From the IMG/VR virus record IMGVR_UViG_3300025117_000638, positions 1 through 28,784 of that record: a stretch of DNA of 28,784 bases; one strand, given 5' to 3'. The stretch comes from a virus. The notes under the pieces were generated by a model. The model saw only the letters and a list, made by a program, of their open reading frames with translations. It made no database searches and was not told where the DNA came from. Both the position numbers and the translations under genes were made by a program. Below, piece by piece: positions 4,300-26,700 of the stretch (within the stretch, counting starts at the first letter, position 1; every line of letters starts with the position of its first letter).

Positions 4300-4673
4300 G
4301 AGCCACCTCCGGTTGGCCGGCAGTGGGCCGAGTAGATCACGTCTACCCCTCCAGGGGAGGTCCGGGTGACGCTCAGCACCTCCAGGATCTCCGCCCCGTC
4401 TACGACCCGGCAGGAGGGTGTGGGCGTTACCGTCAGGCCCTCGGCTGCGATCAGGTACTTCCGGTCCCCCGACTGCACCAGCGTCCCGTCGATCTCCTGT
4501 GCTTGGAACTCCGTCACCACGGCCCTGGCAGCGTAGTCCGTGTTCGTCACGACCGGGCGGTAGGCCTTAATGGGGGCCGTCGTCGTCTGGACCCGCAGCG
4601 TCACCGCCTTGCCCTTGCTCTGGATTAAGGCGCCTGCCTTCGCCCGCAGCCCGGTATAGAAGGCCGTACTCAT
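4296..4673 (-). CDS. Head closure (stopper)-like protein
   Basis: 125-residue, beta-rich protein beginning MSTAFYTGLRAKAGALIQSKG. Its C-terminal half (IAAEGLTVTPTPSCRVVDG, then a valine-rich strand) resembles the small beta-barrel stopper proteins that close the connector after packaging. It is coupled to the upstream adaptor gene by an ATGA overlap and lies exactly where the stopper gene is expected (adaptor, stopper, tail completion, terminator). Identification rests mainly on synteny and size. Confidence 0.65.
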   Translation of the reverse strand: MSTAFYTGLRAKAGALIQSKGKAVTLRVQTTTAPIKAYRPVVTNTDYAARAVVTEFQAQEIDGTLVQSGDRKYLIAAEGLTVTPTPSCRVVDGAEILEVLSVTRTSPGGVDVIYSAHCRPTGGGS

Positions 4674-5179
4674 GCCACCCTCGTCACTGGCACAATACTG
4701 CCGTCGCCGCTCACTGACAAGGGCTCAAGGAGGCGCTTCACGTAAGGGAAGTCGGCTTCCGGGGAAGCCCAGTCCAGGTAGACCACCTCGATCACGTCCA
4801 CCTTTTCCGACTTGACCCCACCTCCCCTGGCGAGGCTGGCATTGAGTGCGGCGTCGATGTGGGCCTTGGCCATCTCTGCCACTGCTGCCTTCACCTGCCA
4901 GGGAATTGTGGTGTCGGAGATCAGCCGGCCCTCGTCGTCGTAGCAACTCTGCCGCGGCCAGTCGAGCACCTGGTCGGTAGTATAGATGAGCCCGCCCCAG
5001 AGGAAGTGTTCATCCACCCACTGGGTCGCATACCGCAGGGCGGCGTCCTTGGCTGCATCCGATGCCCCAGTCCAGGCGGCCGGGCTACCGTGATTCGCCC
5101 AGTAGGCGGTTGCGTCTGCGCGGGCCAGGTAGCTGTCCGCCCCCGTGACAACCGTTCCATCTTCGACGACCAGGGCCAT
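4670..5179 (-). CDS. Head-tail connector / adaptor protein (DnaT_2-like family)
   Basis: 169-residue protein starting MALVVEDGTVVTGADSYL. The N-terminal pattern (V.dGt.v..AdSYla..da..Yw...G), followed by an alternating helical domain with CYDDEGRLI, matches a phage family usually labelled 'putative DnaT-like ssDNA-binding protein'. Its gene position and fold suggest a head-tail adaptor. A strong GGAGG lies just before the ATG at 5179. It follows the coiled-coil protein gene by one base. The DnaT label in databases is probably historical; the connector role is an inference from position. Confidence 0.7.
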   Translation of the reverse strand: MALVVEDGTVVTGADSYLARADATAYWANHGSPAAWTGASDAAKDAALRYATQWVDEHFLWGGLIYTTDQVLDWPRQSCYDDEGRLISDTTIPWQVKAAVAEMAKAHIDAALNASLARGGGVKSEKVDVIEVVYLDWASPEADFPYVKRLLEPLSVSGDGSIVPVTRVA

Positions 5180-5180
5180 C

Positions 5181-5648
5181 TCAGCCTCCGCTTGCCTTCA
5201 CGGCGTTTGCGGCTGCGGCGGCACGGGTCGCCACGGCCATGTCACCCTCGGTTGCGGCTACTACCCGCTGCCGGGCCTCGGCCGCAGCCTTCTCCCGTGC
5301 CTCGTTCTCCTCGGCTTCCCGGGCCTCCAGGTACCCCTGGATCAGGGCCCTGGCGTCCTCGTCTTGCTCCATCAGGTCGCGCACCCGCTGCGCGAACGCC
5401 ATGGTCTGACGCATCTCCGACTCCAGCGCCCGTAGCAGAAGGAGCTGTCGGTGCTGCCCGTCGCGGCCGCCGGAAATCTGCATCACCGCCGTCAGGCCCT
5501 CCTGCATCACGTCAACAACGACGCGGGCCCCAGGCGCAGCCGTTGGCAGTGGATGCCGTAGCACAGCAGGCGCCGGCAGCACAGCTACCGGTCTCACCCC
5601 CGGTTCCCCGGGCCGTGGATGCCGTTGCGCTCGATTGCCGTCAGCCAT
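5181..5648 (-). CDS. Uncharacterised phage protein with C-terminal coiled coil
   Basis: 155 residues: a Pro/Ala-rich N-terminal third, a middle helix (QLLLLRALESEMRQTM) and a long charged alanine- and glutamate-rich helix (about residues 70-155) likely to form a coiled coil. AGGAGG lies 8 bases before the ATG at 5648, the strongest ribosome site in this area, so it probably re-initiates translation after the glycan cassette. No family recognised. It sits at the border where the virion connector genes resume, so a minor virion or assembly role is possible but unproven. Confidence 0.65.
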   Translation of the reverse strand: MADGNRAQRHPRPGEPGVRPVAVLPAPAVLRHPLPTAAPGARVVVDVMQEGLTAVMQISGGRDGQHRQLLLLRALESEMRQTMAFAQRVRDLMEQDEDARALIQGYLEAREAEENEAREKAAAEARQRVVAATEGDMAVATRAAAAANAVKASGG

Positions 5649-5660
5649 CGCAGTGACCTC

Positions 5661-6416
5661 CTAAGTGAGAGAGCCCTTCACCTCGCGGATGCCGTACTTG
5701 GCCTTCACCAGGCTCCAGAACTCGCCGTTGCGCTTGTGGCGGTAGGGTGCGTAGGCCGGGTTGCTGCCAGGGATGTGGTTGATCAGCGTCCCTGGGTAGT
5801 AGCCGACTCGCAGGTCGGCCCGCGTCGCCCTGCCGTCGTAGATCGGGAAGCCGTTACTGCGGCAGCGCAGGAAGAAGTCATGGTGCTCGCAGACCTTCAG
5901 GCGCTCGTCCCACAGCACTCGGCGCACTGCCTCTGCCCGCCCGACCCAGAAGTTCCAGCAGATGTCCACGTCGATGGGGCACCCGTCCAGGCTACGCAGT
6001 GGCGACAGCCGTAGTACCCCATCGACCAGGCGCATGCGGCCCTCGAAGTGGGCTGGGCTGCCGTCATGGAGCACCAGGCCGCCGGCGATGTCGAACAGGC
6101 CCTCCTCTACCATCCGCACCAGGGGCTCCACGCGGGTGCCCGGGATCATCACGAAGTCGTCATCCAGCAGCACGAAGGTCTCGGTCTCAACCTCGGCCAG
6201 GAGTGTGTTTCGGCCGACTGACAGCCCTACGTCATGCGGCAGCTCGAGTAGCCGGGCATCAAATACGCTGCAGACGTCCTGCACCCGGGCATGGTCGCGG
6301 GCGTCGTCAGCCACCAGGGCCCTGGCGTTCGGGTAGAGGGAGCGTAGGCTGCGCAGCAGCCGCGCCAGCTCCTCCGGGCGCTCCAGCGTCTTGACTACGA
6401 AGGTCGTCCGGTCCAT
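5661..6416 (-). CDS. GT-A glycosyltransferase (GT2-like)
   Basis: 251-residue protein with a nucleotide-binding N-terminus (FVVKTLERPEELARLLRSL, then a valine-alanine strand ending in DD at 37-38). The metal-binding acidic motif DDDF is at residues 85-88. The acceptor half contains a 'D..WNFWVGR' segment (about 150-165) and an EHHDFFLRC motif, as in GT2-like and beta-1,4-GalNAc-transferase-like enzymes. It transfers a sugar from a nucleotide donor; acceptor unknown. It is paralogous to the gene at 8282-9007 (shared GLS.GRN, DDF and EH.DFF.RCR blocks). It begins ATG in a TAATG overlap with the preceding epimerase gene. It is the last gene of the sugar cassette before virion connector genes resume. 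Confidence 0.85.
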   Translation of the reverse strand: MDRTTFVVKTLERPEELARLLRSLRSLYPNARALVADDARDHARVQDVCSVFDARLLELPHDVGLSVGRNTLLAEVETETFVLLDDDFVMIPGTRVEPLVRMVEEGLFDIAGGLVLHDGSPAHFEGRMRLVDGVLRLSPLRSLDGCPIDVDICWNFWVGRAEAVRRVLWDERLKVCEHHDFFLRCRSNGFPIYDGRATRADLRVGYYPGTLINHIPGSNPAYAPYRHKRNGEFWSLVKAKYGIREVKGSLT

Positions 6417-7285
6417 TACGCCGCCATCCCGGCCTGCAGCTCTGCCGCGTGGGCCATGAAGTACTCCCAGGTTCGCACCAGCCCGTCCTCAAGGGCGGTG
6501 GTGCAGGCGAACCGGGCGTCCCGGTGGACGGGCAGGACTGGCTGCCGCTCCTCAGGGCCGTGCTCGACCTGGACGCCGATGTTGCAGCAGGTAGCACCTG
6601 CCTTTCGGCCCGTGGCGAGCAGCAGTTGCGCCAAGTCGAGCGTGCTCGTCAGGGTATTAGTGCCAACGTAGTGCCAGGGTTCGTCGTCCCACGCCAGTGG
6701 GTCATGCAGGCGCCGCTCGATGACCTCTGCCACATCATCGACGTAGGTGAAGTCGCGCAACTGGAACCCACCCCAGACCTTGAGGTTCATGGGCTGCCGT
6801 AACAGTAGTTGCTTCATCCACTTGGCGATCACCGAGGTCTTGTACAATGACCCCGGCCCGTACACGTTTGCCAGCCGCAGCACTGTTACCTCAAGCCCCC
6901 ACAGCTCACGCGCCATCTGGCACCACTGCTCCGCAACGTATAGGCTCCAGCCGTAGACTGAGGCACAGCGCTCGACGGAGGCGGCCGAGGCGACGATCAC
7001 CCGGCCGATGCGAGCCGCATTCGCTGCCCGCAGGACGTTGAAGGTGCCCGTGTCGTTGGTGCTCTGCGCCCGGCCCGGGTGGGCATTGCAGTCCCGCGCG
7101 CCAGTCTCCCCGGCGAGGTGAATGACGGCCTCGCAGCGGCGCATGGCATGAAGCACGGCCAGGGTGCGCACGTCCTGATGTCGGTCGTCAGCCACGTCAT
7201 AGGGTATGGCGGGGCCCGCGAGGCGCCACATGAGGGCGCGGCCGATGAAGCCGGCGCTCCCCGTGACCAGGATCTTGCCGTTCAC
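6416..7285 (-). CDS. NAD-dependent epimerase/dehydratase (extended SDR) with altered active site
   Basis: 289-residue Rossmann protein: the dinucleotide-binding loop GSAGFIG is at 9-15, followed by VIHLAGETGARD, SAAS and a family-typical C-terminal block with LRLANVYGPG and FTYVDDVAEV. It belongs to the extended SDRs that epimerise, dehydrate or reduce nucleotide sugars (GalE/RmlD-like). Oddly, the catalytic YxxxK reads YGWSL at 111-115, so the lysine that activates the tyrosine and binds the nicotinamide ribose is leucine. The enzyme may have lost SDR catalysis or use another residue. The start is GTG at 7285, overlapping the glycosyltransferase stop (GTGA). Its stop shares one base with the next start (TAATG). 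Confidence 0.85.
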   Translation of the reverse strand: MNGKILVTGSAGFIGRALMWRLAGPAIPYDVADDRHQDVRTLAVLHAMRRCEAVIHLAGETGARDCNAHPGRAQSTNDTGTFNVLRAANAARIGRVIVASAASVERCASVYGWSLYVAEQWCQMARELWGLEVTVLRLANVYGPGSLYKTSVIAKWMKQLLLRQPMNLKVWGGFQLRDFTYVDDVAEVIERRLHDPLAWDDEPWHYVGTNTLTSTLDLAQLLLATGRKAGATCCNIGVQVEHGPEERQPVLPVHRDARFACTTALEDGLVRTWEYFMAHAAELQAGMAA

Positions 7286-8271
7286 GTCACGCTTCCTTCC
7301 AGGGCCTTCTCAAGGACGCCCAGTAGCTCACCGGCCCGCTGCTCTACCCCGTAGCGCTCATGCACCAGCTGATACCCGGCGTCGGCGATGGCCTGGAGCC
7401 GGTCCGGCTGCGCCAGCCACTTCTCGACGGTGCCCCGCAGGTTTAGGTCGTTCAGTGACAAAGGTACCATGTTCACGTCCGGCTGCCACCCCAGGTCGCC
7501 CATCTCGTCGATCCAGTCGCAGGCCAAGGCCGTCCGACAGGCACATATCTCGTAGAGCTTGGTGACCGGGTAACTGTAGACGGAGGTGCAGGCAAAGGCC
7601 ATGCGGGCTCGCCCAAGCTCGCGGGCGTAGGCCTCTCCCAGCGGCCAGACCTCAGTCGACCCGGGTTTTTCCACTGGTTTCGGAAGGCACTTGTACCCAT
7701 CGAAGCCAGTCATGGCACGGTGGATCCGGTCGCGGAGGGCGTAGACTACCGGGTGGCTGGTACCAGTCGTGAGGCAAGCCACGTCGCGCGGCAACTCGTA
7801 GTCCCGGTATACCGCCTGATCAACCCAGTACGGAAACCAGGCAATCTGCACCTGCGAGCTAGCCCAGATGTCGGGGTGGTACCGCCGCATCCCCTCCCGG
7901 TAGATCGGTAGGAACAGGCGGAAGCCGAACCGGGCCCAGGCCGCGCCGGCGTACTCCTGCACCATCTGGCCGTGCATGTCGCCCAGGAACACCGCCTTGA
8001 GGGGCCGGGTGATGCGCTCCCAGGGCTCGGTCATGTAGGAGTACATCGCGTCGCACACCACCACGTCGCAGCCGTTGGCCTGGTTGATGTCGAGGATGGG
8101 CACGCAGGGCCGCTTGGACAGCATGACCTGCCGGCACCAATCCCCCTCAGTTTCTTCGTAGTGCCGGCGCACCACAGTCACCTCAGTGCGTCGGCCTACC
8201 GCCTCCATGAGCGGGCCATAGTAGTCGATGGTCCCGACCGGTCGGTGGTTAGTCAACCAGAGAATCCTCAT
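7282..8271 (-). CDS. GT-B-like glycosyltransferase (GT4/CgeB-type)
   Basis: 329-residue protein starting MRILWLTNHRPVGTIDYYG, a typical GT-B N-terminal Rossmann strand. The C-terminal donor domain carries SVYSYPVTKLYEICACRTAL, matching the 'P.K.fE..acG..vl' signature of CgeB/GT4-like transferases, followed by a C-terminal helix with HERYGVEQRAGELL. It probably transfers a sugar to a growing glycan or protein. The neighbours are two GT-A enzymes and an epimerase. Its ATG lies in the second copy (in transcription order) of a 14-bp tandem duplication; the first copy contains an ATG that opens a four-codon frame ending in TGA. Confidence 0.8.
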   Translation of the reverse strand: MRILWLTNHRPVGTIDYYGPLMEAVGRRTEVTVVRRHYEETEGDWCRQVMLSKRPCVPILDINQANGCDVVVCDAMYSYMTEPWERITRPLKAVFLGDMHGQMVQEYAGAAWARFGFRLFLPIYREGMRRYHPDIWASSQVQIAWFPYWVDQAVYRDYELPRDVACLTTGTSHPVVYALRDRIHRAMTGFDGYKCLPKPVEKPGSTEVWPLGEAYARELGRARMAFACTSVYSYPVTKLYEICACRTALACDWIDEMGDLGWQPDVNMVPLSLNDLNLRGTVEKWLAQPDRLQAIADAGYQLVHERYGVEQRAGELLGVLEKALEGSVT

Positions 8272-8285
8272 CAGAGAATCCTCAT
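8258..8285. repeat. Perfect 14-bp tandem duplication at a gene junction
   Basis: The unit cagagaatcctcat occurs twice head to tail (8258-8271 and 8272-8285). In transcription order, the first copy overlaps the upstream glycosyltransferase stop as ATGA and encodes only Met-Arg-Ile-Leu before a TGA. The second copy provides the start of the real downstream gene (again Met-Arg-Ile-Leu). Because 14 is not a multiple of 3, the duplication displaced the original coupled start. Confidence 0.9.
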
Positions 8286-9007
8286 TGCGCCACCGTCCAT
8301 ACTACCCGCTCCCAGCCCCACCGGCGCTTGACGATGTCCCAGAATTGCGCCGAGCGATTGCGAAAGGCCGCGTAGCCTACCGGGTGTTTGGAGTCGTGGA
8401 TGCAGCTGACGCTGGGGCAGTACCCGACGCGCACCCCTGCCAGCCGGCAGCGCCAGAAGAAGTCCTCGTGCTCAATCATCTTCAGCGGCTCGTACCACCG
8501 CAGCTCGCGCAGCACCTCTACCTGGGCCACCATCCAGTTGAGCACGATGTGCATGGGACAGGTCTGCCTGGGGTTGGGCCGGTACAAGTGCAACTCAGCG
8601 CCTACCTGCTCCATCAGGCCCTCGTACCGCTGTAGGGTGCCGTTGGGCCTCACCAGGCTGCCGCCGAGGAGGTCATAGTCCCCCAGCTCCGAGCAGAAGC
8701 GTTCCAGCTTGGTAGCCGTTGTGAAGACGAAGTCATCTTCAGCAATGGCGATGAACTTCGTGTCAGCCTCGTCCGCCAGGCGATTGCGGCCAGCGGACAG
8801 CCCCGAGTCGAAGTCCATACGGATGCAGCGGGCGCCAAACTCCTCACACAGGCCCTCGGACGACTGCCGGCCGTCATCGGCGACAAGCACCGGTAGCTCG
8901 GGGTAGAAGTGCCGCACGCTCTTCAGCAGGCTGCGCAAGCACTCCGGCCGGTCGAAGGTCTTGATGCCGAGGGTCAGGTCCTTCATGGCTTTGCCCGTGC
9001 TCCTCAT
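8282..9007 (-). CDS. GT-A glycosyltransferase (GT2-like), paralogue of the gene at 5661-6416
   Basis: 241-residue protein with the GT-A layout: GIKTFDRPECLRSLLKSV at the N-terminus, the VADDG loop near 42-46, GLSAGRN near 69-75, the acidic metal motif EDDF at 90-93 and IEHEDFFWRCRLAG in the acceptor half. Each block has a counterpart in the gene at 5661-6416, so the two arose by duplication and may add successive sugars. The ATG at 9007 overlaps the sulfotransferase stop by 4 bases; a second ATG eight codons in (8986) is an alternative start. The product probably acts in the cytoplasm on a lipid-linked, free or protein-linked acceptor, which the sequence does not reveal. Confidence 0.85.
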   Translation of the reverse strand: MRSTGKAMKDLTLGIKTFDRPECLRSLLKSVRHFYPELPVLVADDGRQSSEGLCEEFGARCIRMDFDSGLSAGRNRLADEADTKFIAIAEDDFVFTTATKLERFCSELGDYDLLGGSLVRPNGTLQRYEGLMEQVGAELHLYRPNPRQTCPMHIVLNWMVAQVEVLRELRWYEPLKMIEHEDFFWRCRLAGVRVGYCPSVSCIHDSKHPVGYAAFRNRSAQFWDIVKRRWGWERVVWTVAQ

Positions 9008-9636
9008 GGCACTACCTGTGCCAGCCGGTTCTCGGCCGCAGCCGGGTACTGGTCGAGGGCTACTGGGTCAGCTACGCCTATCCACCGCATCATCTCCCGC
9101 TGCTTGGCTTGCGAGTTGAGATCCCGGGTGGGCCAGATGTGGAAGGCCCCTGGGTACCGCCTCTGCCACTCCTGCGCCAGGGTATGCACCAGGCTCCAGT
9201 ACATCGTCGCTGTCCGGCTCCGTGGCGACAGAAAATCAGGCACCTCGGCCAGCCAGCCCGTCCCCGACATGACAGACTGCACAAACCCGTCACAGTCGCG
9301 CTCCAGGTGGACCACCGCAGCCCCGTACTCCTCGATCAGCACGGACACCAGCGGTAGGTACCAGGGTCCGATGTCGCCGACGATCTTCTCCCCCTCATCC
9401 CAGGGGCCGCGCACCTCCACCCCGGCCTCCCACAGGGCGTCCGCTGGCCGCTCTCTCTGGGCCGCCTCTCTCCAGCGAGCCACGGCCTCTCGTAGGGGGA
9501 CATCCCCGCCTACCCACGGCAGGCGCAGCCGCTCGTGGGTCAGGCCACACCGCGGCTGTGCCAGCGCGAGCACCCGCAGGCTCTTACTGCCGCAGCGCCC
9601 CGTCCCCGTGCCGAAGGCCAGTCTCAGGTCGTTCAC
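9004..9636 (-). CDS. Sulfotransferase-like P-loop protein, copy 2
   Basis: 210-residue protein with the N-terminal motif GTGTGRCGSKSL (residues 9-20). This has the form of the 5'-phosphosulfate-binding loop of PAPS-dependent sulfotransferases ('G..R.GT..L'). Conserved blocks follow: WEAGVEVRGPWDEGEKIVGD, an IGPWYLPL segment, HLERDCDGFVQS (in the place of the usual 3'-phosphate-binding R..S region) and EWQRRYPGAF. It is paralogous to the adjacent gene 9633-10307 but lacks about 15 residues in its middle. The start is GTG at 9636 in a GTGA overlap. Predicted role: transfer of sulfate to a glycan made by this cassette. A different P-loop transferase such as a kinase cannot be excluded. Confidence 0.75.
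   Translation of the reverse strand: MNDLRLAFGTGTGRCGSKSLRVLALAQPRCGLTHERLRLPWVGGDVPLREAVARWREAAQRERPADALWEAGVEVRGPWDEGEKIVGDIGPWYLPLVSVLIEEYGAAVVHLERDCDGFVQSVMSGTGWLAEVPDFLSPRSRTATMYWSLVHTLAQEWQRRYPGAFHIWPTRDLNSQAKQREMMRWIGVADPVALDQYPAAAENRLAQVVP
9356..9432. repeat. 77-bp near-identical segment shared with 10036-10112 (copy in sulfotransferase 2)
   Basis: This segment matches 10036-10112 at 75 of 77 bases; the two differences are a/g changes near the middle. It encodes the strongly conserved WEAGVEVRGP to IGPWYLPL region. The rest of the two genes is much more diverged, so either strong constraint or recent gene conversion is needed to explain the block. Confidence 0.85.
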
Positions 9637-10307
9637 GGGCCCACCTTCGCCAGGCGATTTTCGGCACGGTCGGGGTAGCGGTCAAGCGTCACTGGATCAT
9701 CGACCCCTAGCCACTGCATCATCTCCCGCTGCCTCTCCCGCAAGTCGAGGTCCCACATCGACCAGGCGCGGAAGCCCTCCGGGTACTCCCGCACCCATTC
9801 CTGCGCCATCTCATGCACCAGGTCCCACCAGTGTCCCGCCGCTTCGGCCCGGTTGCCGGGGAACTTCGGGATGCAGGTCAGGTAAACGTCGCTGGCTGGA
9901 GCTACTCCGGCGTCGGGGTGGAGGGAGAAGCAGTCCCAGGAGCAACGCAGGGCGGAATCGACGTAGGCGGAACGCTCGCGCTCCAGGTGGATCACCCGGG
10001 CACCGTGGCGCTCAATGAGAGCCGGGACGAGGGGCAGGTACCAGGGTCCGATGTCGCCGACGATCTTCTCCCCCTCGTCCCAAGGGCCGCGCACCTCCAC
10101 CCCGGCCTCCCAGGTGGCTTCGCCCGGTCGGGGTCCGGCAGCGGCGTCCTGCCACAGTTGCAGGGCCTCCGGCAGTAGCGCCTGGCCGCCGCTCCAGGGT
10201 AGATGTAGCCGCTCGTGGGTTACGAAACATCGCGGCTGTGCCAGCGTGAGCACGCGAAGACTCTTCGTCCCACATCGCCCCGTGCCAGTGCCGAAGGCCA
10301 GCCTCAC
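9633..10307 (-). CDS. Sulfotransferase-like P-loop protein, copy 1
   Basis: 224-residue protein beginning at GTG 10307, which overlaps the aminotransferase stop as GTGA. The N-terminal GTGTGRCGTKSL (residues 6-17) fits the 5'-phosphosulfate-binding loop of PAPS-dependent sulfotransferases. Near residue 115 an HLERERSAYVDSAL segment occupies the usual R...S 3'-phosphate-binding position. The middle part, with CSWDCFSLHPDAG and YLTCIPKFPG, has no counterpart in copy 2 and may set acceptor specificity. No PAPS synthesis genes are seen, so the host would have to supply PAPS. Assigned from motif and context; biochemical activity is inferred. Confidence 0.75.
   Translation of the reverse strand: MRLAFGTGTGRCGTKSLRVLTLAQPRCFVTHERLHLPWSGGQALLPEALQLWQDAAAGPRPGEATWEAGVEVRGPWDEGEKIVGDIGPWYLPLVPALIERHGARVIHLERERSAYVDSALRCSWDCFSLHPDAGVAPASDVYLTCIPKFPGNRAEAAGHWWDLVHEMAQEWVREYPEGFRAWSMWDLDLRERQREMMQWLGVDDPVTLDRYPDRAENRLAKVGP
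10036..10112. repeat. 77-bp near-identical segment shared with 9356-9432 (copy in sulfotransferase 1)
   Basis: Second member of the 77-bp pair, offset by exactly 680 bases from the first. Both lie in the same codon phase of the two paralogous sulfotransferase-like genes, so they are homologous coding blocks and not an inserted element. Confidence 0.85.
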
Positions 10308-11422
10308 CGGGCAGCCTCCAGGATGGTAGAGATGATGGCCTGCTGATCGGCCAGGCCCAGGCTGGAGCCCGAAGGCAGGCAAAGCCCGTCTCGGTTCAGC
10401 TTCTCCGCGACCGAGCCACCGTAGACCCTGTTCCCTGCTAGGCACGGCTGCCGGTGCAGGGGCAGGAACAGCGGGCGCGAGTCGAAGCCCCGGGTCTGAA
10501 GCAGGCTCCAGACGTCCTCCGCCGTGGCCCCGAAGAGCTCGGGGTCGATCACGATACCGGTCAGCCAGGCGTTGCTGCGCGTGCCTGCGGATTCCCCCTG
10601 GAACCGGATGCCGGGATGCTGCAAGGCTTGCTGATACCGGGACCTCACGGCGCGGCGGCTGGCGATCCGGGACGGCAACTGCATGAGTTGTCCCTGTCCC
10701 ACAGCAGCCAGTAGGTTGCTCAGGCGGTAATTGAACCCGACCTCCTGGTGGAGGTACTGCGGCCCCGGCTCCCGCGCTTGGGTCGCCAGGTGGCGGGCGC
10801 GGTCGACCAAGTCCGTCCGGTGCCCGGTCACCAAAGCTCCGCCGCCGCCAGTGGTGATGATCTTGTTGCCGTTGAAGGAGAAGATGCCCAGGTCTCCAAG
10901 GATACCGACCGAGGCGTCCCGGTAGGTAGCCCCCAGGGCAGCGGCGGCGTCCTCGATGATCGGCACCCCGTAGAGCTGACAGGCGGAGCGGATGGCATCC
11001 ATGTGCGCCGGCTGGCCGTACGCATGCGTCACGGTGACGGCAGCAATGGCCCCCTGATGCTCGTCCAGGGCCTCCTGCAGCAGCCCGGCGTCCATGCACC
11101 ATGCGTGGGGCTCCGCGTCGATGAAGAGGGGCCGTGCCCCCAGGTGCACGGCCGGGCCGACGGAGGCGATGAAGGTCAGCGTGGAGCAGGCCACCAGGTC
11201 GCCGGCCCCGATGCCGAGCACCCGGTAGGCCAGGTCGAGGGCAGCGGTCCCCGAGCAGGTCGCCAGTGCCGCCGCGGCGCGCGTCTGCGTCTGCAACTCC
11301 CGCTCGAACCTCTCCACGTACGGTCCCAGCGGAGCGATCCAGTTGGAGTCGAAGGCATCGAGCAACAGGGCACGCTCGACAGGCCCAACATCAGGCGGGG
11401 ACAGATGGCTACGGAGACTCAC
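10304..11422 (-). CDS. DegT/DnrJ/EryC1-family sugar aminotransferase
   Basis: 372-residue PLP enzyme of the sugar aminotransferase family. It shows ATCSGTAALDLA (about 53-66, cofactor phosphate contacts), the IIEDAAAALGA block with the PLP-ring aspartate at 158, and FSFNGNKIITTGGGG with the Schiff-base lysine at 187. Length is normal for the family. The enzyme aminates a 4-keto nucleotide sugar, most often using glutamate. It lies between an acyltransferase and sulfotransferase genes, downstream of a dehydratase that could supply its 4-keto substrate, as in PglE/PseC routes. The start is GTG at 11422, overlapping the acyltransferase stop (GTGA). Confidence 0.92.
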   Translation of the reverse strand: MSLRSHLSPPDVGPVERALLLDAFDSNWIAPLGPYVERFERELQTQTRAAAALATCSGTAALDLAYRVLGIGAGDLVACSTLTFIASVGPAVHLGARPLFIDAEPHAWCMDAGLLQEALDEHQGAIAAVTVTHAYGQPAHMDAIRSACQLYGVPIIEDAAAALGATYRDASVGILGDLGIFSFNGNKIITTGGGGALVTGHRTDLVDRARHLATQAREPGPQYLHQEVGFNYRLSNLLAAVGQGQLMQLPSRIASRRAVRSRYQQALQHPGIRFQGESAGTRSNAWLTGIVIDPELFGATAEDVWSLLQTRGFDSRPLFLPLHRQPCLAGNRVYGGSVAEKLNRDGLCLPSGSSLGLADQQAIISTILEAAR

Positions 11423-12042
11423 AGGGCTACCAGGTCAGGGTCCAGCGCCCGGTCAGTTGCGAACTCCAAGCCAGGGCGCTGCCCGAAGGGCTGGGGAAGC
11501 TGGCGGGCATAGTGGGTGCTCCCAGGTGAGATGTCCTGCTGCACGACGGCACCCGCCCACACCTTGGCACCCGGCCCGATGCTGCGGTTCGGCACCACTA
11601 CAACCCCAGTTCCCAGGACTGCCCGCGCCCCCACCTTGACGCCGCCTGCCAGCAGGCACCCCGGCGCCAGGTTGGCAAAGCTGCCGATCTCGCAGTCGTG
11701 GGCGATGCTGGTGTGAGCCTGCAGCACCGCACCGTCCCGCACAACGGCCTTGCCAGCGACTGTAACGAACGGCTCGATCAGCACCCCGAAGCCTACCTCG
11801 GCGCGGGATGAAACCTGCGCCAGGGGCGAGATGAGGGTCAGGGGAGTCCGGCAGCAGGCGAGAATCGCGGCGATGGCGTTCTCCACCATGCTCGGCGTCG
11901 ATCCAAGCGGATAGAGCAGCACGTCCTCCGGAGCGTCCCACGGGTGCTCTATGCGGCCCACGTACTCGTAACCCGGCCTGGCGTCGCAGATGTCCCGCAC
12001 GGCCAACTCAAAGCTCCCGTAACCGAGGCAGGCGATCTTCAC
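11419..12042 (-). CDS. Left-handed beta-helix sugar O/N-acyltransferase (PglD/NeuD-like)
   Basis: 207-residue protein. The N-terminal Rossmann-like part (VKIACLGYGSFELAVRDI) is of the PglD/NeuD nucleotide-sugar-binding type. From about residue 75 come hexapeptide repeats (isoleucine/valine-glycine periodicity: GVLIEPFVTVAGKAVVRDGA and later SIGPGAKVWAGAVV) with the catalytic-type histidine in TSIAHDCEIG. PglD-type enzymes N-acetylate UDP-4-amino sugars; NeuD-type enzymes O-acetylate sialic acid. Next to a 4,6-dehydratase and an aminotransferase, the PglD role is more likely. The start is GTG at 12042 (GTGA overlap); a longer frame to 12105 only adds a shadow of the upstream gene's end. Confidence 0.88.
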   Translation of the reverse strand: MKIACLGYGSFELAVRDICDARPGYEYVGRIEHPWDAPEDVLLYPLGSTPSMVENAIAAILACCRTPLTLISPLAQVSSRAEVGFGVLIEPFVTVAGKAVVRDGAVLQAHTSIAHDCEIGSFANLAPGCLLAGGVKVGARAVLGTGVVVVPNRSIGPGAKVWAGAVVQQDISPGSTHYARQLPQPFGQRPGLEFATDRALDPDLVAL

Positions 12043-13073
12043 GTCGTTGCCTCCGCGTCGTCCGACACCAGGCGGGCAAGGGCGGCCCGCACATCTGCGG
12101 GGCACCCGTCTGTGATCGCCATTTTCAGCCCGAAGAACTTTGAGTCAGTTGTCAGGAGTGGCTGCGGGTACGGCTGGCGGCAGATCAGCAGGTCGTCAGC
12201 CGGCTCCGTCACCTCGTCTTGGTAGAGGGGTCGCTCTGACAGTTTCTCCACCGGGGACAGCTGGGTGTACAGGACCGTCTCGGAGCGACCGTGCAACTCC
12301 ATGACCCGCTGGGCCAGATCGGCTATCCGCACCGGCGGGAACAGGGGCATGGTCACAAGCGGAGCCTGGGACAGGGCCGCAGCCTGGACTGCGGCCCGCG
12401 CCGCCTCGCTTACCGTCACGAAGTGGCGCTCTACGTCCGGGTGGGACACCACCAGGGGCAATCGCTGTTGCAGCCGGGACTCGAAGATGGGCAGGACACT
12501 GCCACTGCTGCCAAGCAGGTTGACGAGGCGCAACACCGTGACCTCCAGGCCGGCTTGCCCCCGGAAGCCATAGGCCAGGCGCTCGCAGACGTGCTTGGTG
12601 GCCCCGTAGACGCAGACCGGGGACACGGCCTTGTCTGAGGAGATGAGCAGTAGGCGCCGCACCCCGGCCGCCTTTGCGGACGAGGCTAGTGCCGCCAAAC
12701 CACCCACGTTGTTCTTTACCCCGGCTCGGGGCATTGCTTCGACCAGCCCGACGTGCTTGTGGGCGGCCGTGTGAATCACCACCTGGGCCTGCGTGAGGCT
12801 CAGCAGGTCCCCCACTTGGCGTGCCATCGTGACGCTGCACAGGTGCGTGCTTGCCTCGGGCACCTCCCGCGCCATCTCGTACAGGGCCACCTCGGAGTGG
12901 TCGCAGCAGTGCAACTCCTCCACCTGCCCGGCCAGCAGGCGGCAGATGGCGGTCCCCAGCGTTCCGGCCCCCGTGACCAGCACGGAGTAGGGTGCCAGGG
13001 CAACCAGCGCAGCACTGAGGTCACAGGGCACCTCGTTGCGGTCGAGCAGGGCGCGGACGACATCAGGGCGCAT
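12039..13073 (-). CDS. UDP-sugar 4,6-dehydratase, CapD/FlaA1 (PglF/PseB-like) SDR
   Basis: 344-residue soluble protein. The NAD-binding TGAGTLG loop is at 34-40; IHTAAHKHVGLVEA at about 100-113 is the hallmark 'H.AA.KHV..vE' of the polysaccharide-biosynthesis dehydratases. SSDKAV (D147, K148) and YGATK (Y156, K160) complete the active site. These enzymes convert UDP-GlcNAc to a 4-keto-6-deoxy sugar. The membrane domains of large PglF/WbpM proteins are absent, as in FlaA1/PseB. Tyrosine at 156, eight residues after K148, resembles the FlaA1/PseB arrangement rather than the methionine of WbpM/PglF. With the aminotransferase and acyltransferase downstream it forms a three-step amino-sugar route. 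Confidence 0.9.
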   Translation of the reverse strand: MRPDVVRALLDRNEVPCDLSAALVALAPYSVLVTGAGTLGTAICRLLAGQVEELHCCDHSEVALYEMAREVPEASTHLCSVTMARQVGDLLSLTQAQVVIHTAAHKHVGLVEAMPRAGVKNNVGGLAALASSAKAAGVRRLLLISSDKAVSPVCVYGATKHVCERLAYGFRGQAGLEVTVLRLVNLLGSSGSVLPIFESRLQQRLPLVVSHPDVERHFVTVSEAARAAVQAAALSQAPLVTMPLFPPVRIADLAQRVMELHGRSETVLYTQLSPVEKLSERPLYQDEVTEPADDLLICRQPYPQPLLTTDSKFFGLKMAITDGCPADVRAALARLVSDDAEATT

Positions 13074-13530
13074 GGGTGTCTCCCGATAGCAGCGCTACTA
13101 CTCTCGGCCGGTTGAGGTTCTGGCCCTCAAAGGCAAGCAGGCGGTCCAGGAACGGGCGGTCGCACCCCTCCACCAGGGCTGTGAGCTTGTTCCGGGGTAG
13201 CCGCAGCAGCTCCTCCTCAAGGCTCTGCTGGGCCCGGAGCACGACGCTGGGCTCGGGCTCAGGTGCGGGCTCAGGTGCGGGTAGGAGTGTCGGCACGGGT
13301 TTGGGTGCAGGTGTATCAGGCTGAGCTTGCGCCATCACTGCGTCCTCACTGAGGATTCGCACTGTGTGATAGCGCGTCAGGATACGTGAGGCAACCTCGG
13401 CCTCCCCGTTGGGGAGCGTGAGGCAGCCATTCTCGAAGTACCAGCCGGTTACTACCTGGCAGTCTGGCGTTGGCTGCGGCAGGAAGCCGGTGTAGCCTGC
13501 CAGGGCCCCGTAGGCCTCAAAGGTCTTCAC
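13063..13530 (-). CDS. Uncharacterised protein sharing an N-terminal domain with the product of 14187-15197
   Basis: 155 residues from GTG 13530 (GAGG upstream; overlaps the methyltransferase end by 14 bases). The N-terminal 55 residues (KTFEAYGALAGYTG, WYFENGCLTLPNGEAEVASR, ILTRYHTVRIL) align with residues 2-52 of the larger protein two genes upstream. A Pro/Ala/Glu-rich linker and a C-terminal helical part (ELLRLPRNKLTALVEGCDR) follow. No known family recognised. Its position inside the glycan cassette, directly after a methyltransferase, and the domain sharing suggest both proteins bind the same partner, perhaps a virion protein. This is an inference. Confidence 0.7.
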   Translation of the reverse strand: MKTFEAYGALAGYTGFLPQPTPDCQVVTGWYFENGCLTLPNGEAEVASRILTRYHTVRILSEDAVMAQAQPDTPAPKPVPTLLPAPEPAPEPEPSVVLRAQQSLEEELLRLPRNKLTALVEGCDRPFLDRLLAFEGQNLNRPRVVALLSGDTHAP

Positions 13531-14179
13531 CGCGGCCTCGGCACATGGCATACATCTCGGACCCCAGCCACGGGAAGGCTCGCCGTAGCGGGCCGTAGGA
13601 CAGCCAGCGGATACCCCAGGGTGCATCGACAAAGCGCACGTCTACCTCCCACACCTCCCAGCCCTGATTGGCAAGCACCTGCACGAGAAGGTGCCGGTCG
13701 TAGCCCTGCAAGTGTCCCTCTGGTTCACCCTGCAGCTGGCGCCGGGCTGCCCTCCAGAAGCGTCGTGGTCTCAGGAGGTTGGGGGTCATGATGAGAGCCC
13801 AACCGGCCACCCGGCGCATCTCCCGCAGCAGCCCAACCGGGCTCTCGACGTGCTCGATCAGGCCGGTCGCCACTGCTACGTCAATGGCGGCATCTGCGAA
13901 CGGTAGGGCGAGGGCGTCCCCGACCTCTATTTCGGCAGTAGGGGCGTGGGTGCGGGCGATGTCCACCAGTGCAGGATCCAGGTCCACCCCATAGCAGCAG
14001 AAGCGCTCGTCGCCCTCCAGGCTCTCCAGGAACTCACCCATGCCGACGCAGCAGTCCAGCACGCGCAGAGGGCAGCCCCCAAGGGCTGCGATCTCCTCAA
14101 GCTGCCGGCGCACGATAGCGTGCCCTTCAAGCCGCGAGGGCAGGCCCCGGGTCCGGTCGATGTGGGCAGTCCAGACCAC
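13517..14179 (-). CDS. Class I SAM-dependent methyltransferase
   Basis: 220-residue protein with the SAM-binding motif I VLDCCVGMGEF (40-50), the acidic ribose-binding motif YGVDLDP, a GDALALPFADAAID motif and an 'ATGLIEHVESP...LLREMRRV' block, as in Methyltransf_11-type small-molecule methyltransferases. Such enzymes methylate sugars, lipids or other small substrates; the EHVESP segment is common in sugar and polyketide O-methyltransferases. It begins at GTG 14179, 7 bases after the upstream gene. In this context it could methylate the glycan or its precursor. The cysteines in motif I in place of the usual glycine are a little unusual. Confidence 0.85.
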   Translation of the reverse strand: MVWTAHIDRTRGLPSRLEGHAIVRRQLEEIAALGGCPLRVLDCCVGMGEFLESLEGDERFCCYGVDLDPALVDIARTHAPTAEIEVGDALALPFADAAIDVAVATGLIEHVESPVGLLREMRRVAGWALIMTPNLLRPRRFWRAARRQLQGEPEGHLQGYDRHLLVQVLANQGWEVWEVDVRFVDAPWGIRWLSYGPLRRAFPWLGSEMYAMCRGRGEDL

Positions 14180-14186
14180 GGCCTTC

Positions 14187-15197
14187 TCAGGCCGCCTTGG
14201 CCCTCAGGGCCGTGGTCAGCTTGCGTACCACGTCCTGCCGCGGCCGGGCCTTGCGGCTCTCGGCCTCCAGGGCACGCAGGACAAAGTCCCGGGACAGGCC
14301 GCTGATGAACTGCTCGTCCTTGAGGGCCCGGCGGATGTCGCGCACCGGCTGCACGACGAACTTCTCCGCGGTCATCTCCGGGTCCGTCACCTGCGGCGCC
14401 AGGATGTGCTCGGGTACCTTCACGCCAAGGCGGTTGGCGAACATCTCCAGCACCAGCGGCCTACGGTCACTGCTCGCCATCTCGGCATCGTAGGCAGCCT
14501 GGACGAGCTGGCGCGTGAACACCCCGATCATCTCCTCGTCAGTGAGCAGCTGGCGGATCTCCTCGGGTGCCTTAGTGAGCAGCCGGGTCACGAGCCCGCT
14601 ATCCAGCTCAGGCTCATCGACGGCCGCCGGCGCCTCCGGCGGTGCTACGGTCTGGCCCTCCACGTTGGGCGGTGAATCCTCGGTGCCTCTGGCCACTACC
14701 GGGTGACCGTCCGGGGCCTCCAGGTGTACGCCGGTACGCGTCAGGTGCTCGGTCTCTGAGCCCGTGCGGTTGGGGTCCGGGGCGGCAGGATTGGTCGGGA
14801 TGTAGCGTAGCCGGCCTTCCGGTATCCCGGCCTTCTGGTAGGCCTGCACGACGGCCTCGCAGCCGTCGGTGACCAGGACGCCGTCGACCTTCTGCTGCAG
14901 GTCGGTCTCCAGCGTCCCAAGCTCGTCAGGATGGCGCACTACCAGTGCCCGGCCGGGCCAGGTCTCTCGCGCCACGGTCTGGGCGCGGCTGCGCCAGTCG
15001 TTGCTGGCCTTGGGCCCCCAGATGTGTACTACCATGTCGTCGGTCTCCAGAATGCGGACAGTGTGGAAGCGGCAGAGGATGCGGGCTGCCGCATTGGCCT
15101 CGGCGTCCGGGAGCTGAAGCCGCCCCTCGACGAACCACCAGCTCGCTACCGAGCCGGTGATGTTCGCCAGCGGGCCATGTGCCTCAAAGGTCTTCAT
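14187..15197 (-). CDS. Uncharacterised 336-residue protein with the shared KTFEA domain
   Basis: Starts at the ATG at 15197 (GGAG upstream). Residues 2-52 (KTFEAHGPLANITG, WWFVEGRLQLPDAEAN, ILCRFHTVRIL) match the N-terminal domain of the product of 13063-13530. Residues about 55-140 contain a segment with VDGVLVTDGCEAVVQAY and GIPEGRLRYIPTNPAA. This loosely resembles the donor-domain junction of GT-B transferases ('advvl..S....v..y...G.p..ri.vIp.g'), but there is no complete glycosyltransferase. The C-terminal 150 residues are helical and charged. It is the first large gene after the capsid genes, so a capsid-associated or glycan-acceptor role is possible. No confident function. Confidence 0.7.
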   Translation of the reverse strand: MKTFEAHGPLANITGSVASWWFVEGRLQLPDAEANAAARILCRFHTVRILETDDMVVHIWGPKASNDWRSRAQTVARETWPGRALVVRHPDELGTLETDLQQKVDGVLVTDGCEAVVQAYQKAGIPEGRLRYIPTNPAAPDPNRTGSETEHLTRTGVHLEAPDGHPVVARGTEDSPPNVEGQTVAPPEAPAAVDEPELDSGLVTRLLTKAPEEIRQLLTDEEMIGVFTRQLVQAAYDAEMASSDRRPLVLEMFANRLGVKVPEHILAPQVTDPEMTAEKFVVQPVRDIRRALKDEQFISGLSRDFVLRALEAESRKARPRQDVVRKLTTALRAKAA

Positions 15198-15221
15198 CGC
15201 AGGTCGCTCCATGTTCGGGTG

Positions 15222-15602: not shown

Positions 15603-16514
15603 TTAGTTGGTGACCCCCGTCCCGGCCGCAAGGCCGTTCAGGTTGAACAGTGCGAGCCCACAGTACCAGAGCACGCGGGTGATGTGCTCATCGCGCGTCT
15701 GGTGCTCCCCTACGTCCTTGATCACGATGCCGCCGTCGTTGGCAGCCGTCAGACCTGCGATCCCGATGCTCTCGGAGCCGTCGTCGAAGGTGCCAGCGAG
15801 GACCGTGGTGCAGTTGGTCAGCGACCCTGCCGTCTGGTTGACCGGGATGTAGTCGTTGCGGAAGATCGGGATGCTCCGGTACGCCGGGACCGTTGCACCG
15901 TTCGGCAGCTGCACCACCTCCGTGACGGAGGCACCGCCGAGGGAGCGCACCAGGTTGAAGAAGCTGCGCCGGGTGCGCGCGTTCATGGCGAAGTAGTCGA
16001 CCTCACCGTCCTTGTCCGTCACCAGGTCGATGAGGTTGTCGAGCAGGGCGAAGCTGAGCGCCCCGTCCTGTGCGACGATCTTGGTGGCGTCCACGAGGGC
16101 GAGCAGCCCGGTGAACTGGTTGTTGATACCGGTGCCATTGACCAGCATGTCCTGGAACTGGCGACCGGCCGACTTCGCCTTGCTTGCTACCTGTGAGCCG
16201 GTCTGGTCGGTGTGACTGGACCGGGTAGCCTGGATCAGGCCGTTGACCTCCGCGTCCCCGACGATGGTTGTCAGGGCGCTGGTGACGGAGGTGAAGGTTG
16301 CAGCGGCCTTGCCGGCGACGATCTCCGTACCGACCGTGCCCAGCTGCACCGCACCCAGCGCATTCTCTCGGGTGTACTGCAGGGCATTACCATCGATGGT
16401 CTCGAACGGCAGTGCCTCGTACATCTGGTTCACGGTGATCACGTTCTCGATCACCCCGGCGATCAACTCGTTGTCGCTGAGTTTCGCCGACTCGACCAGC
16501 GTTACTGATGCCAA
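15603..16514 (-). CDS. Major capsid protein (HK97-type fold)
   Basis: 303 residues, starting MASVTLVESAKLSDNELIAG. It matches the HK97-like coat family in order: an N-terminal arm (VIENVITVNQMYEALPFETI), an E-loop-like segment (TRENALGAVQLG), a long spine helix region (EVNGLIQATRSSHTDQTG, FQDMLVNGTG), and an 'A...RTRRSFFNLVRSLGG' helix with the typical C-terminal P-domain strands (IPIFRNDYIPVNQTAG). The start is TTG at 16514, with AGGAG eight bases upstream and no in-frame ATG nearby. It lies between scaffold and connector genes and is bracketed by hairpins. A protease gene is not seen, so processing is unlikely. Confidence 0.9.
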   Translation of the reverse strand: MASVTLVESAKLSDNELIAGVIENVITVNQMYEALPFETIDGNALQYTRENALGAVQLGTVGTEIVAGKAAATFTSVTSALTTIVGDAEVNGLIQATRSSHTDQTGSQVASKAKSAGRQFQDMLVNGTGINNQFTGLLALVDATKIVAQDGALSFALLDNLIDLVTDKDGEVDYFAMNARTRRSFFNLVRSLGGASVTEVVQLPNGATVPAYRSIPIFRNDYIPVNQTAGSLTNCTTVLAGTFDDGSESIGIAGLTAANDGGIVIKDVGEHQTRDEHITRVLWYCGLALFNLNGLAAGTGVTN

Positions 16515-23917: not shown

Positions 23918-24489
23918 CACAGACTGTTCTCGCTGCGGCCGTGGGTGATGTCGTCCAGAGCATGCAGGTATATCTGAATCCGGCCGGCGTGGTCTTGCGG
24001 GTCTACCGGCCCCTTGCCCGCCGCCTCTAGGCCGGCCTGCTGCTCGACCAGCCGCCCGATGCGACCCAGGAAGGTGTCGATGATCCGCCACAGATCAGGC
24101 CGCCGGCGCCTGACCTCCTCGAACTGCCGCCGCTGGGAGCCGGAATCGTCCCGGCGTTGGATGATCTCGGCTACCTCCATGCCTGCCGTCTTGTCCTGGT
24201 CGGTGGCCCACTCGTAGTAGCAGGCCAAGGCGCGATCGAGCATCACGCGACAGACGGCAATCTCCTGAGTGAGCCCGTCGAGTCGGCCCGCCTCGTCCAA
24301 AGTGGCCAACTCCCGATCCGTGAAATGCCGCGCGTAGATGCCGTGATCCACCGGCCTCCCCTTGGGCGCATGCTGCGCCCGGTGCAGGCCGCACCAGCCG
24401 GTATCGTCGGCAGGCCGCGTGCATCGGCAGCCCTGCGTGTCCGGCCCTAAGTGCTTGCAGCGCTCAGGCTGCTTCTTAGCTCTCGGCAT
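23917..24489 (-). CDS. Putative terminase small subunit with Cys/His N-terminus
   Basis: 190 residues. The N-terminus has C11, C21, C23, C33 and H36 arranged as CxnCxCxnCGLH, which may bind zinc. A DHGIYAR motif and helical segments (LTQEIAVCRVMLDRALACYY) follow, with a long C-terminal helix. Proteins with such a short Cys-rich head and HGIYAR-like motif commonly precede large terminase genes in phages. It would recognise the packaging site. Its ATG at 24489 overlaps the radical SAM end by 14 bases. I base this mainly on position; no direct small-subunit motif is visible. Confidence 0.65.
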   Translation of the reverse strand: MPRAKKQPERCKHLGPDTQGCRCTRPADDTGWCGLHRAQHAPKGRPVDHGIYARHFTDRELATLDEAGRLDGLTQEIAVCRVMLDRALACYYEWATDQDKTAGMEVAEIIQRRDDSGSQRRQFEEVRRRRPDLWRIIDTFLGRIGRLVEQQAGLEAAGKGPVDPQDHAGRIQIYLHALDDITHGRSENSL

Positions 24490-25999
24490 CTTGCTGCCTC
24501 GGCAAACGACTTGACTTGATTGCCAGATAGCACTCCCTGTCGATCATGTCCACCCGTCGCTGATAGGCTTGCCACCGGCGGCGGAGGCCCGTTGTGGGCA
24601 CGTGGGTTTCGACCACCTGCCAAGGATAGCGCCCCTCGGGGGCAAGGGTGCCGCAAAGGTAGTCCAGATCGTACCCCCAGTGCTTTTCCAGATAGCGCGC
24701 AAAGAGGCGCGCCCCCACTCGTCCGGGGCGGCCGGTTTGGGAAGTCAGTTTCCGGTTGGCTGCCAGGTCACGAAGTACTCCCTCGACCCGTGCGTCACCA
24801 CGGACCGCCAGTTGCGCCTTGATGCGACTCAACGGCCCCCAAATCCGAGGCGTGAAGGCAATGGTCATTCTCCACCGCTTGGAGTCGTCGTGTCCGTGCG
24901 GCCACAAAGCCAGCTGGAAACGGCCGGTATAGTCACCGAACGGATCAGCGGCGGCGGCCCACTGAAGTGGCGTGTGCGGTTGCGTCAGGAAGGTGTTGAC
25001 GAAGGGCATAAGTGTCATGGAATTGGCCTCTGGTATCGCATTCAATCGCCGCAGGAGTTCGGTCCAAGCAGCGTAGTCCTCCTCGGTCTCGCCAGGCAAC
25101 CCGAGGATGAGATAGAACCGTATCCCCCGCTTGCCCTTCTCCGACTCGGCCACGAGCTTTTGACAGCCGTCCACAAAGTCTGAGTCGGTGATACCCTTGC
25201 CAATGGCCAGCCGCAAGCGCTCGCTGAGACCCTCCAAGCCAAACAGCACCGTGCCCTTGTGTCCTGGCCTGGTCTTCAAATTATCCCAGCGCAGGTCAGA
25301 TGCCGTGTTGGTCTTGCCGGCGGCAGCAGTGAAACACTCGATCTCATCATACCCGGAATGGGCCAATCGCTCCGGCGCAAACAGAGCGACATTTTTGTTC
25401 GGTCCCTGAGCGATCAGGGCCTTGATGTCTTCCGGCCTCCCCTCTCGGTATGGCTTCAGATAGCTCAGCGCACAGAAGGCGCACCTGTATCGGCAGCCTC
25501 GGGCTATCTCAATCCGCGTGGCTTTCTGCCCAGGCTCGACCATGGCTGTAGCCGAGAAGGCATCAGACCGCCAGCGGGTGATCTCTGTCTTTCCCGGCCA
25601 GTACGCCCCGGAGAGTTCTCCAATCATCTCCTCCTGCCCGTCTCTGGCCAACGCCAAGGCATCCGGCAAGAAGCCCTCCCCGTCGCCGATGCACGCCCAA
25701 TGGTAGAGCGATCCAAGGGAGACGAAGTTGTAGGCCTGGAATCCGCCGATGATGACCAATGGCTTGCGGCTCTTTGCCGGATCTACTCCGCAGCGCCGTA
25801 GGAACGCGGCGTAATCGTAGAGGTGTTCCCACCAGAACAGGGAGAATAGGAGCACATCGAAGGCGCCGGCGGTGCGTTGCCCCATAGACTCCAAGCGCAC
25901 TCCCTCCACGGTGCGCGCCTGCTCCAGGCACAGGTACATGCCGTAGTTCAGCGACGTTCGCCCGAACGTCCGATAGCCGACTCGCAGCGTCCTACTCAT
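24476..25999 (-). CDS. Radical SAM enzyme, cobalamin-binding-like N-terminus
   Basis: 507 residues. A Rossmann-like N-terminal half with VIIGGFQAYNF (about 82-92) and IGDGEGFLPDAL (about 104-115) resembles the B12-binding domain of class B radical SAM proteins, though the DxHxxG cobalamin motif is not seen. The radical SAM core has ARGCRYRCAFCAL with C169, C173 and C176 (CxxxCxxC, 4Fe-4S cluster), and a FYLILGLPGETEEDY segment typical of this barrel. The gene starts with ATGA overlapping the ParB-like gene. Its coding sequence is visibly more A/T-rich than its neighbours, suggesting recent acquisition. The reaction cannot be named; modification of nucleic acid or a cofactor are options. Confidence 0.9.
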   Translation of the reverse strand: MSRTLRVGYRTFGRTSLNYGMYLCLEQARTVEGVRLESMGQRTAGAFDVLLFSLFWWEHLYDYAAFLRRCGVDPAKSRKPLVIIGGFQAYNFVSLGSLYHWACIGDGEGFLPDALALARDGQEEMIGELSGAYWPGKTEITRWRSDAFSATAMVEPGQKATRIEIARGCRYRCAFCALSYLKPYREGRPEDIKALIAQGPNKNVALFAPERLAHSGYDEIECFTAAAGKTNTASDLRWDNLKTRPGHKGTVLFGLEGLSERLRLAIGKGITDSDFVDGCQKLVAESEKGKRGIRFYLILGLPGETEEDYAAWTELLRRLNAIPEANSMTLMPFVNTFLTQPHTPLQWAAAADPFGDYTGRFQLALWPHGHDDSKRWRMTIAFTPRIWGPLSRIKAQLAVRGDARVEGVLRDLAANRKLTSQTGRPGRVGARLFARYLEKHWGYDLDYLCGTLAPEGRYPWQVVETHVPTTGLRRRWQAYQRRVDMIDRECYLAIKSSRLPRQQDAES

Positions 26000-26682: not shown

Positions 26683-26700
26683 CGCCACTCTTCTCTATTT

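Follow-up and report, generated by a model that had tools for sequence, protein, structure and literature searches.

The window analysed here is the whole of IMG/VR record IMGVR_UViG_3300025117_000638, a linear virus record of 28,784 bp that represents a fragment of an incomplete genome. Three adjoining genes on its minus strand, between 10304 and 13073, encode a predicted dehydratase, acyltransferase and aminotransferase that may constitute a phage-encoded, bacillosamine-type nucleotide-sugar route, with the resulting glycan most likely carried on a particle protein; we give this reading as a whole an even chance. Taken separately, a bacillosamine-type product of the three genes is probable, and gene content and genomic position together make the particle the somewhat favoured acceptor. 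The predicted product is most likely UDP-N,N'-diacetylbacillosamine (UDP-diNAcBac) or a close variant, for which we infer the activity, the C5 configuration and the acyl group from the sequences. In the proposed route the dehydratase would convert UDP-N-acetylglucosamine (UDP-GlcNAc) to a 4-keto sugar, the PglE-type aminotransferase would place an amino group onto C4, and the PglD-type enzyme would acylate the C4 amine to give a UDP-2-acetamido-4-acylamino-2,4,6-trideoxyhexose. Cytosolic glycosyltransferases encoded by the surrounding cassette would transfer this sugar into a glycan, likely on a particle protein, which a methyltransferase and sulfotransferase-like proteins may decorate.

Three predicted enzymes of a proposed nucleotide-sugar route

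The three genes, in their order on the minus strand, were as follows:

12039-13073 (-), NDP-sugar 4,6-dehydratase of the PglF/WbpM class, predicted to be soluble and without a membrane domain (Pfam PF02719; best PDB match PglF; SDK...Y...K active site)
11419-12042 (-), left-handed beta-helix N-acyltransferase of the NeuD/PglD/PerB kind, GTG start (TIGR03570; AlphaFold model; fold match)
10304-11422 (-), DegT-family pyridoxal phosphate (PLP) aminotransferase, PglE type (best PDB match PglE; tree)

Neighbouring genes overlapped by 4 bases. The initial annotation had described three linked enzyme genes, and these are real: all are open minus-strand frames with Pfam matches far beyond chance (Polysacc_synt_2 at 4.5e-53, Hexapep at 1.4e-14 and DegT_DnrJ_EryC1 at 4e-82, respectively). 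Pfam, NCBIfam and PHROGs concurred on the families of all three proteins. For the structural comparisons, PDB entries 5bjy, 1o61/4ztc, 2vhe and 2fn6 were taken by us to be PglF, PglE, PglD and PseC, respectively, the PglF and PglD entries being named as such in the search results.

The aminotransferase (372 aa) contained the PLP lysine (SFNGNK187) and kept 75 of 83 near-invariant positions. Its best PDB relative was PglE (1.2e-72), compared with 6.6e-15 for the PseC-type chain 2fn6, and it scored 333 bits against the LegC-family model TIGR04181, which has a cut-off of 420. In a quick tree, the rows of which were picked by similarity to the window protein, it fell inside a branch with Campylobacter jejuni PglE, leaving LegC, PseC, WbgX and perosamine synthase (RfbE) outside (Shimodaira-Hasegawa-like approximate likelihood ratio test, SH-aLRT, 98). 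When 84,980 species genomes were scanned for this protein, 80 loci with up to 53% identity were found, in Nitriliruptoraceae, Planctomycetota, Myxococcota and others. Up to 8 kb on each side of these loci, a PglC-type sugar transferase was found at 44/80, a PglD-like protein at 21/80, a NeuC-like protein at 11/80 and NeuB at 3/80; dehydratases were PglF-like at 17/80 and best matched by the PseB query at 10/80.

The dehydratase (344 aa) had PglF as its best PDB relative (7e-45, 156.8 bits), ahead of the inverting enzyme FlaA1 (5e-20, 75.2 bits), and its PglF bit score was about twice those of FlaA1, CapE or Pen as PDB matches. The catalytic residues were present (Ser145/Asp147/Lys148...Tyr156...Lys160), as was the N-terminal LLxR lead-in of the PglF-class rows, the PseB rows starting later. 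In a tree of dehydratases it paired with a Planctomycetota PglF-type protein (38% identity), and its terminal branch measured 3.7 changes per site. As 33 of 40 near-invariant residues, the catalytic Asp-Lys among them, were kept despite this long branch, the protein appears to be under constraint. At family level, its sequence places it among PglF-type UDP-GlcNAc 4,6-dehydratases. A genome scan with the dehydratase as query gave no hit.

The acyltransferase (207 aa) starts at a GTG, and a longer open reading frame (ORF) reaching 12105 is an upstream extension. It scored 97 bits against TIGR03570, below the cut-off of that model, and its best PDB relative was PglD (1.3e-13), with Neisseria PglB level and PerB close. 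The AlphaFold model of the protein (ACYLTRANSFERASE; predicted local distance difference test, pLDDT, 88.6) was a PglD-like two-domain protein that matched the solved folds of PerB (Z 27.4), PglB (27.1) and PglD (26.4) equally well; because PerB and PglB tie with PglD, the fold does not tell the nucleotide of the substrate. His115, which is invariant, aligned with the active-site His of the family (His125 of PglD, PMC8040287). Judged from the modelled fold, the protein is a 4-amino-sugar N-acyltransferase.

Two other classes of pathway were considered less likely. The routes to dTDP- and GDP-sugars are disfavoured because the dehydratase is of the Polysacc_synt_2 type. Synthesis of a nonulosonate (legionaminic or pseudaminic acid) is disfavoured since NeuB was found neither among the window proteins scanned nor near most of the bacterial relatives. 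Among the scanned proteins of this 28.8-kb linear fragment there was no NeuB/PseI synthase, NeuC/PseG hydrolase or CMP-transferase, in agreement with the earlier remark that the synthase and the CMP-transferase were missing, and the accompanying view that a UDP-trideoxyhexose is likelier than a nonulosonate is in line with the neighbourhood counts (NeuB 3/80 versus PglC-type transferase 44/80).

Cassette at the capsid-tail border

The proteins encoded by the window include a large terminase, portal, head morphogenesis protein, scaffold, major capsid protein, tail terminator, tail tube and tape-measure protein; the phage is a Mesyanzhinovviridae-like siphovirus, a tailed virus of bacteria. The closest isolates by capsid protein were Pseudomonas phage Ab18-like (Mesyanzhinovviridae) and Rhodobacter phage RcSimone-Hastad, in which only ~1.3-1.4 kb separates the capsid gene from the next head-tail genes. 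In the window, the equivalent interval held ten sugar-related genes and two proteins with a common module of ~55 aa. The sugar-related genes form a cassette from about 14179 down to 5661 on the minus strand, between the capsid and head-tail genes. The initial annotation had treated the three enzyme genes as a unit; they are present, and the rest of this cassette and its location in the structural operon had been missed. The other features of the region were:

15603-16514 (-), major capsid protein (phrog_212, 4.8e-60; 64-68% identity to the Pseudomonas Ab18-like and Rhodobacter RcSimone-Hastad phages)
14187-15212 (-), MKTFEAxG-module protein adjoining the capsid gene, candidate particle protein (homologue at the equivalent site in L004, identical copy in L003; both described below)
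13517-14179 (-), class I methyltransferase, head of the cassette (PF08241/PF13489, about 1e-14)
13063-13530 (-), MKTFEAxG-module protein, candidate particle protein or acceptor (module 56% identical to the one in 14187-15212)
9633-10307 (-), sulfotransferase-like protein 1 (P-loop GTGRCGTKSL and LERxxxxxxxS; GTG start overlaps the DegT stop)
9004-9636 (-), sulfotransferase-like protein 2 (AlphaFold model matches; the L004 homologue passes the cut-off of PF13469, Sulfotransfer_3)
8282-9007 (-), glycosyltransferase family 2 (GT2; PF00535, 2.5e-11)
7282-8271 (-), GT-B-like glycosyltransferase (Glyco_trans_1_2; PF13524, 1.6e-7; homologues in L004)
6416-7285 (-), second short-chain dehydrogenase/reductase (SDR) of the epimerase/reductase type, perhaps for tailoring or for a second branch (PF01370, 1.4e-29; weak best PDB matches)
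5661-6416 (-), GT2 (PF00535, 3.8e-13)
4670-5179 (-), head-to-tail adaptor homologue at the far border of the cassette (37% identity to L072:16347-16685, the annotated adaptor of RcSimone-Hastad; Pfam name DnaT_2)

As in phage virion glycosylation systems, glycosyltransferases were thus found linked to structural genes. The cassette and the structural genes agreed in codon usage (r 0.987), and both are presumably expressed together. Because it lies inside the structural gene run, a particle protein (the capsid, an MKTFEAxG-module protein or the tail) is the most likely acceptor of the glycan. None of the cassette proteins had a transmembrane-like segment. Signs of lipid-linked (membrane) glycan assembly were sought in the window without success: the proteins scanned included no initiating transferase of the lipid-linked PglC type and no flippase, polymerase or membrane glycosyltransferase.

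The two sulfotransferase-like proteins are tandem duplicates (61% identical) that share the P-loop motif by which sulfotransferases bind PAPS. Sequence profiles for them were weak; the model of protein 2, which is of low confidence (pLDDT 61), matched 14 PDB chains at E<=0.001 with Foldseek, all of them sulfotransferases. The ~55-aa module (MKTFEAxGPLxxxTG...RILCRFH) was encoded at 14993-15194 and 13333-13530 of the window; the two window proteins that carry it had no family match in the libraries tried. The ORF at 5181-5648, on the tail-side border, encodes 155 aa, the first third of which is rich in Pro, Ala and Arg; it has a strong ribosome-binding site and was without a Pfam match. Outside the cassette, upstream of the terminase, two overlapping genes encode a radical-SAM protein of the B12 type and a ParB-like protein (24476-26688). 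These two genes, which could be a modification pair, had hardly any relatives among the records of the phage collection described below.

A comparison of capsids in IMG/VR gave 68 capsid-bearing loci. L003 is a 4.8-kb contig whose capsid-side genes were 100% identical to those of the window and which ends within the methyltransferase. The closest distinct locus, L004 (75% capsid identity), carried a different cassette at the equivalent site (L004:12562-20912, >8 kb); its contig ends inside this cassette, so that the far border lies off the contig. The L004 cassette encoded an SDR, a GT2-FkbM methyltransferase fusion, sulfotransferases, a fusion of GT2 and GT-B with an N-terminal MKTFEAxG module, a methyltransferase and another glycosyltransferase. 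The module was present in one capsid-side protein of this sister phage (L004:11369-11570) and at the N terminus of one of its glycosyltransferases (L004:15970-16149). From the comparison of the window with L004, at least two phages of this group take glycan cassettes at the capsid-tail site, and these cassettes differ in content. An assembly chimera was considered and is unlikely, given the uniform codon usage, the overlapping genes, the support from L003 for the capsid-side border as far as the methyltransferase and the cassette at the equivalent site of L004. A search of 49 related records, many of them fragments, found PF02719 in none and PF00535 in L004 only.

In a phage collection of 50,697 records, no record showed the dehydratase-aminotransferase-acyltransferase set. 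Only five PglF-like records covered most of the length of the dehydratase, and these were unannotated, mostly short and bacterial in appearance. These records (OR844989, OR849864, OR846932, OR848126 and MT839298) carry typical bacterial PglF-type genes with 50-55% identity to a Chloroflexota one, and are probably host DNA. The same collection held no aminotransferase above about 35% identity, no full-length acyltransferase and no match to the sulfotransferase-like copy tested. Pattern scans of IMG/VR for the dehydratase, the aminotransferase, the sulfotransferase-like protein, the portal and the 341-aa protein revealed no further phage with the cassette, which does not prove absence since short exact peptides miss distant relatives.

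Alternative products and acceptors

Several observations weigh against a bacillosamine-type product. The dehydratase has lost 7 of 40 near-invariant positions (G184, V186, T210, G245, G271, R273 and G275), with alteration of the G-x-R-x-G-E-K stretch (G271Q, R273S, G275V) and a G184V change. In place of the TDK...M...K active site of PglF/WbpM it has SDK...Y...K, with Tyr156 at a position occupied by Met or Leu in the rows of the PglF class used for comparison. The SDK...Y...K motif is that of inverting PseB/FlaA1, CDP-glucose dehydratase and Pen, whereas PglF and WbpM have Met, and the M438Y variant of WbpM retained some activity (PMC8987622). Grouping of the dehydratase with PseB was not rejected by the tree test (p 0.319). 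In the acyltransferase there were no counterparts of His15, Asp35 and Asp36, the UDP-sugar-binding residues of PglD (PMC8040287); the aligned stretches read GYGSFEL and VGRIEH, and on this alignment the acceptor site must differ in detail from that of PglD. NCBIfam scores of all three proteins were also under the curated cut-offs. The earlier statement that all catalytic motifs are intact therefore stands for the catalytic residues of the three enzymes and fails for the lost dehydratase positions and the nucleotide-sugar-binding residues of the acyltransferase. The phylogenetic placement that had been proposed as a check came out in favour of PglE for the aminotransferase and left the dehydratase ambiguous. 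The bacillosamine-type assignment itself was upheld by the best PDB relatives (PglF, PglD and PglE), the PglE clade and the PglC-type neighbours, and weakened by the Tyr-type motif and the altered acceptor site.

Given this motif, we propose that the dehydratase functions as PglF does, without classing it as a strict PglF. Both the motif and the unrejected PseB grouping would suit a C5-inverting enzyme with a PseB-type (L-altro) or other product instead of bacillosamine. This is improbable in view of the twofold higher PglF score, the LLxR lead-in, a partner aminotransferase that is PglE-type and not PseC-type, and the activity left in WbpM M438Y; overall similarity and the PglE-type partner favour the retaining route. 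The second SDR (6416-7285), which lies within the same operon, might alternatively reduce the 4-keto product to N-acetylquinovosamine or N-acetylfucosamine, the aminotransferase and acyltransferase then serving a minor branch or another sugar, and in giant viruses one dehydratase does serve both diNAcBac and Qui2N/Fuc2N branches (PMC10117803). We regard this as still less probable: the weak similarity of the SDR to known enzymes does not indicate a 4-reductase, and it is the aminotransferase and acyltransferase genes that are coupled directly to the dehydratase gene.

With the bacillosamine-type route retained, the acceptor has also to be weighed. Phage-borne glycosyltransferases that alter the host O-antigen are well known, and the three window genes have bacterial relatives in loci with initiating sugar transferases, like surface-glycan loci; the same route could accordingly place its glycan on the host surface (lipopolysaccharide, capsule or S-layer) and so block superinfection or hide the cell. 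The lack of an initiating transferase, flippase, polymerase, membrane glycosyltransferase and transmembrane-like segment noted above argues against this, as does the position of the genes, which are surrounded by head and tail genes, a class whose expression is normally late. We consider this reading unlikely. Glycosylated bases occur in some phages, and the radical-SAM and ParB-like genes at 24476-26688 could be taken to suggest that the cassette places a sugar on a hypermodified base of the phage DNA. We find this hardly credible: the cassette is at the capsid-tail border, away from the genes for replication, the radical-SAM protein is similar to B12-binding types and had no match among annotated DNA-modification genes, and the sulfotransferase-like proteins and several glycosyltransferases better suit an oligosaccharide.

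Comparison with known systems

PglF-PglE-PglD of C. jejuni and EpsC-EpsN-EpsM of Bacillus subtilis carry out UDP-diNAcBac synthesis (PMC10653937). The window genes resemble both systems in the three families, the best solved relatives, the operon-like linkage and the clade of the aminotransferase. They differ in that the dehydratase is highly divergent, lacks the membrane domain of its long bacterial relatives and has Tyr for Met, the acceptor site of the acyltransferase is altered, and no PglC-type transferase was found alongside. Glycosylation clusters are also present in Moumouvirus australiensis (Ma467/Ma465/Ma466), Tupanvirus and Cotonvirus, and diNAcBac has been demonstrated in the fibrils of Moumouvirus australiensis (PMC10117803). 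These Megavirinae clusters are the closest parallel: there, as in the window, a virus encodes relatives of PglF, PglE and PglD together with genes for glycosyltransferases and methyltransferases and others related to sulfate. The Megavirinae are giant viruses of eukaryotes (amoebae), whereas the window belongs to a bacterial siphovirus and has its cassette inside the structural run. Mycobacteriophages Che8 and Rita have glycosylated capsids and phage glycosyltransferases (Freeman et al. 2023, as cited in PMC11256854), and share with the window phage-encoded glycosyltransferases which, in their case and according to that citation, are linked to glycan on particle proteins. Cyanophages (P-SSM2 and kin) likewise bear SDR and DegT-like genes, but the sequences are distant (24-30%) and the PglF-D-E set was not found there.

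The diNAcBac route, the giant-virus clusters and phage particle glycosylation were thus already known; the set in a tailed phage was new among the phage records searched. We tentatively suggest, as a fuller picture that may well need revision, that an exchangeable cassette at the border of the capsid and tail genes lets this phage make a rare diamino sugar of its own and put a glycan with sulfate and methyl groups on its particle, in convergence with giant viruses, and that the dehydratase belongs to the PglF class and has reverted to a Tyr-type active site. If this were true, the dehydratase would provide a small soluble PglF-type enzyme for studying the determinants of C5 configuration. Some tailed phages, besides borrowing sugars from the host, would produce a diamino sugar of the bacterial type and, like giant viruses, might cover their particles with it. 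The particle glycan would in that case be a trait that varies among phages and can be read at a single genomic site; it might have a part in adsorption, in the stability of the particle or in recognition by antibodies and grazers.

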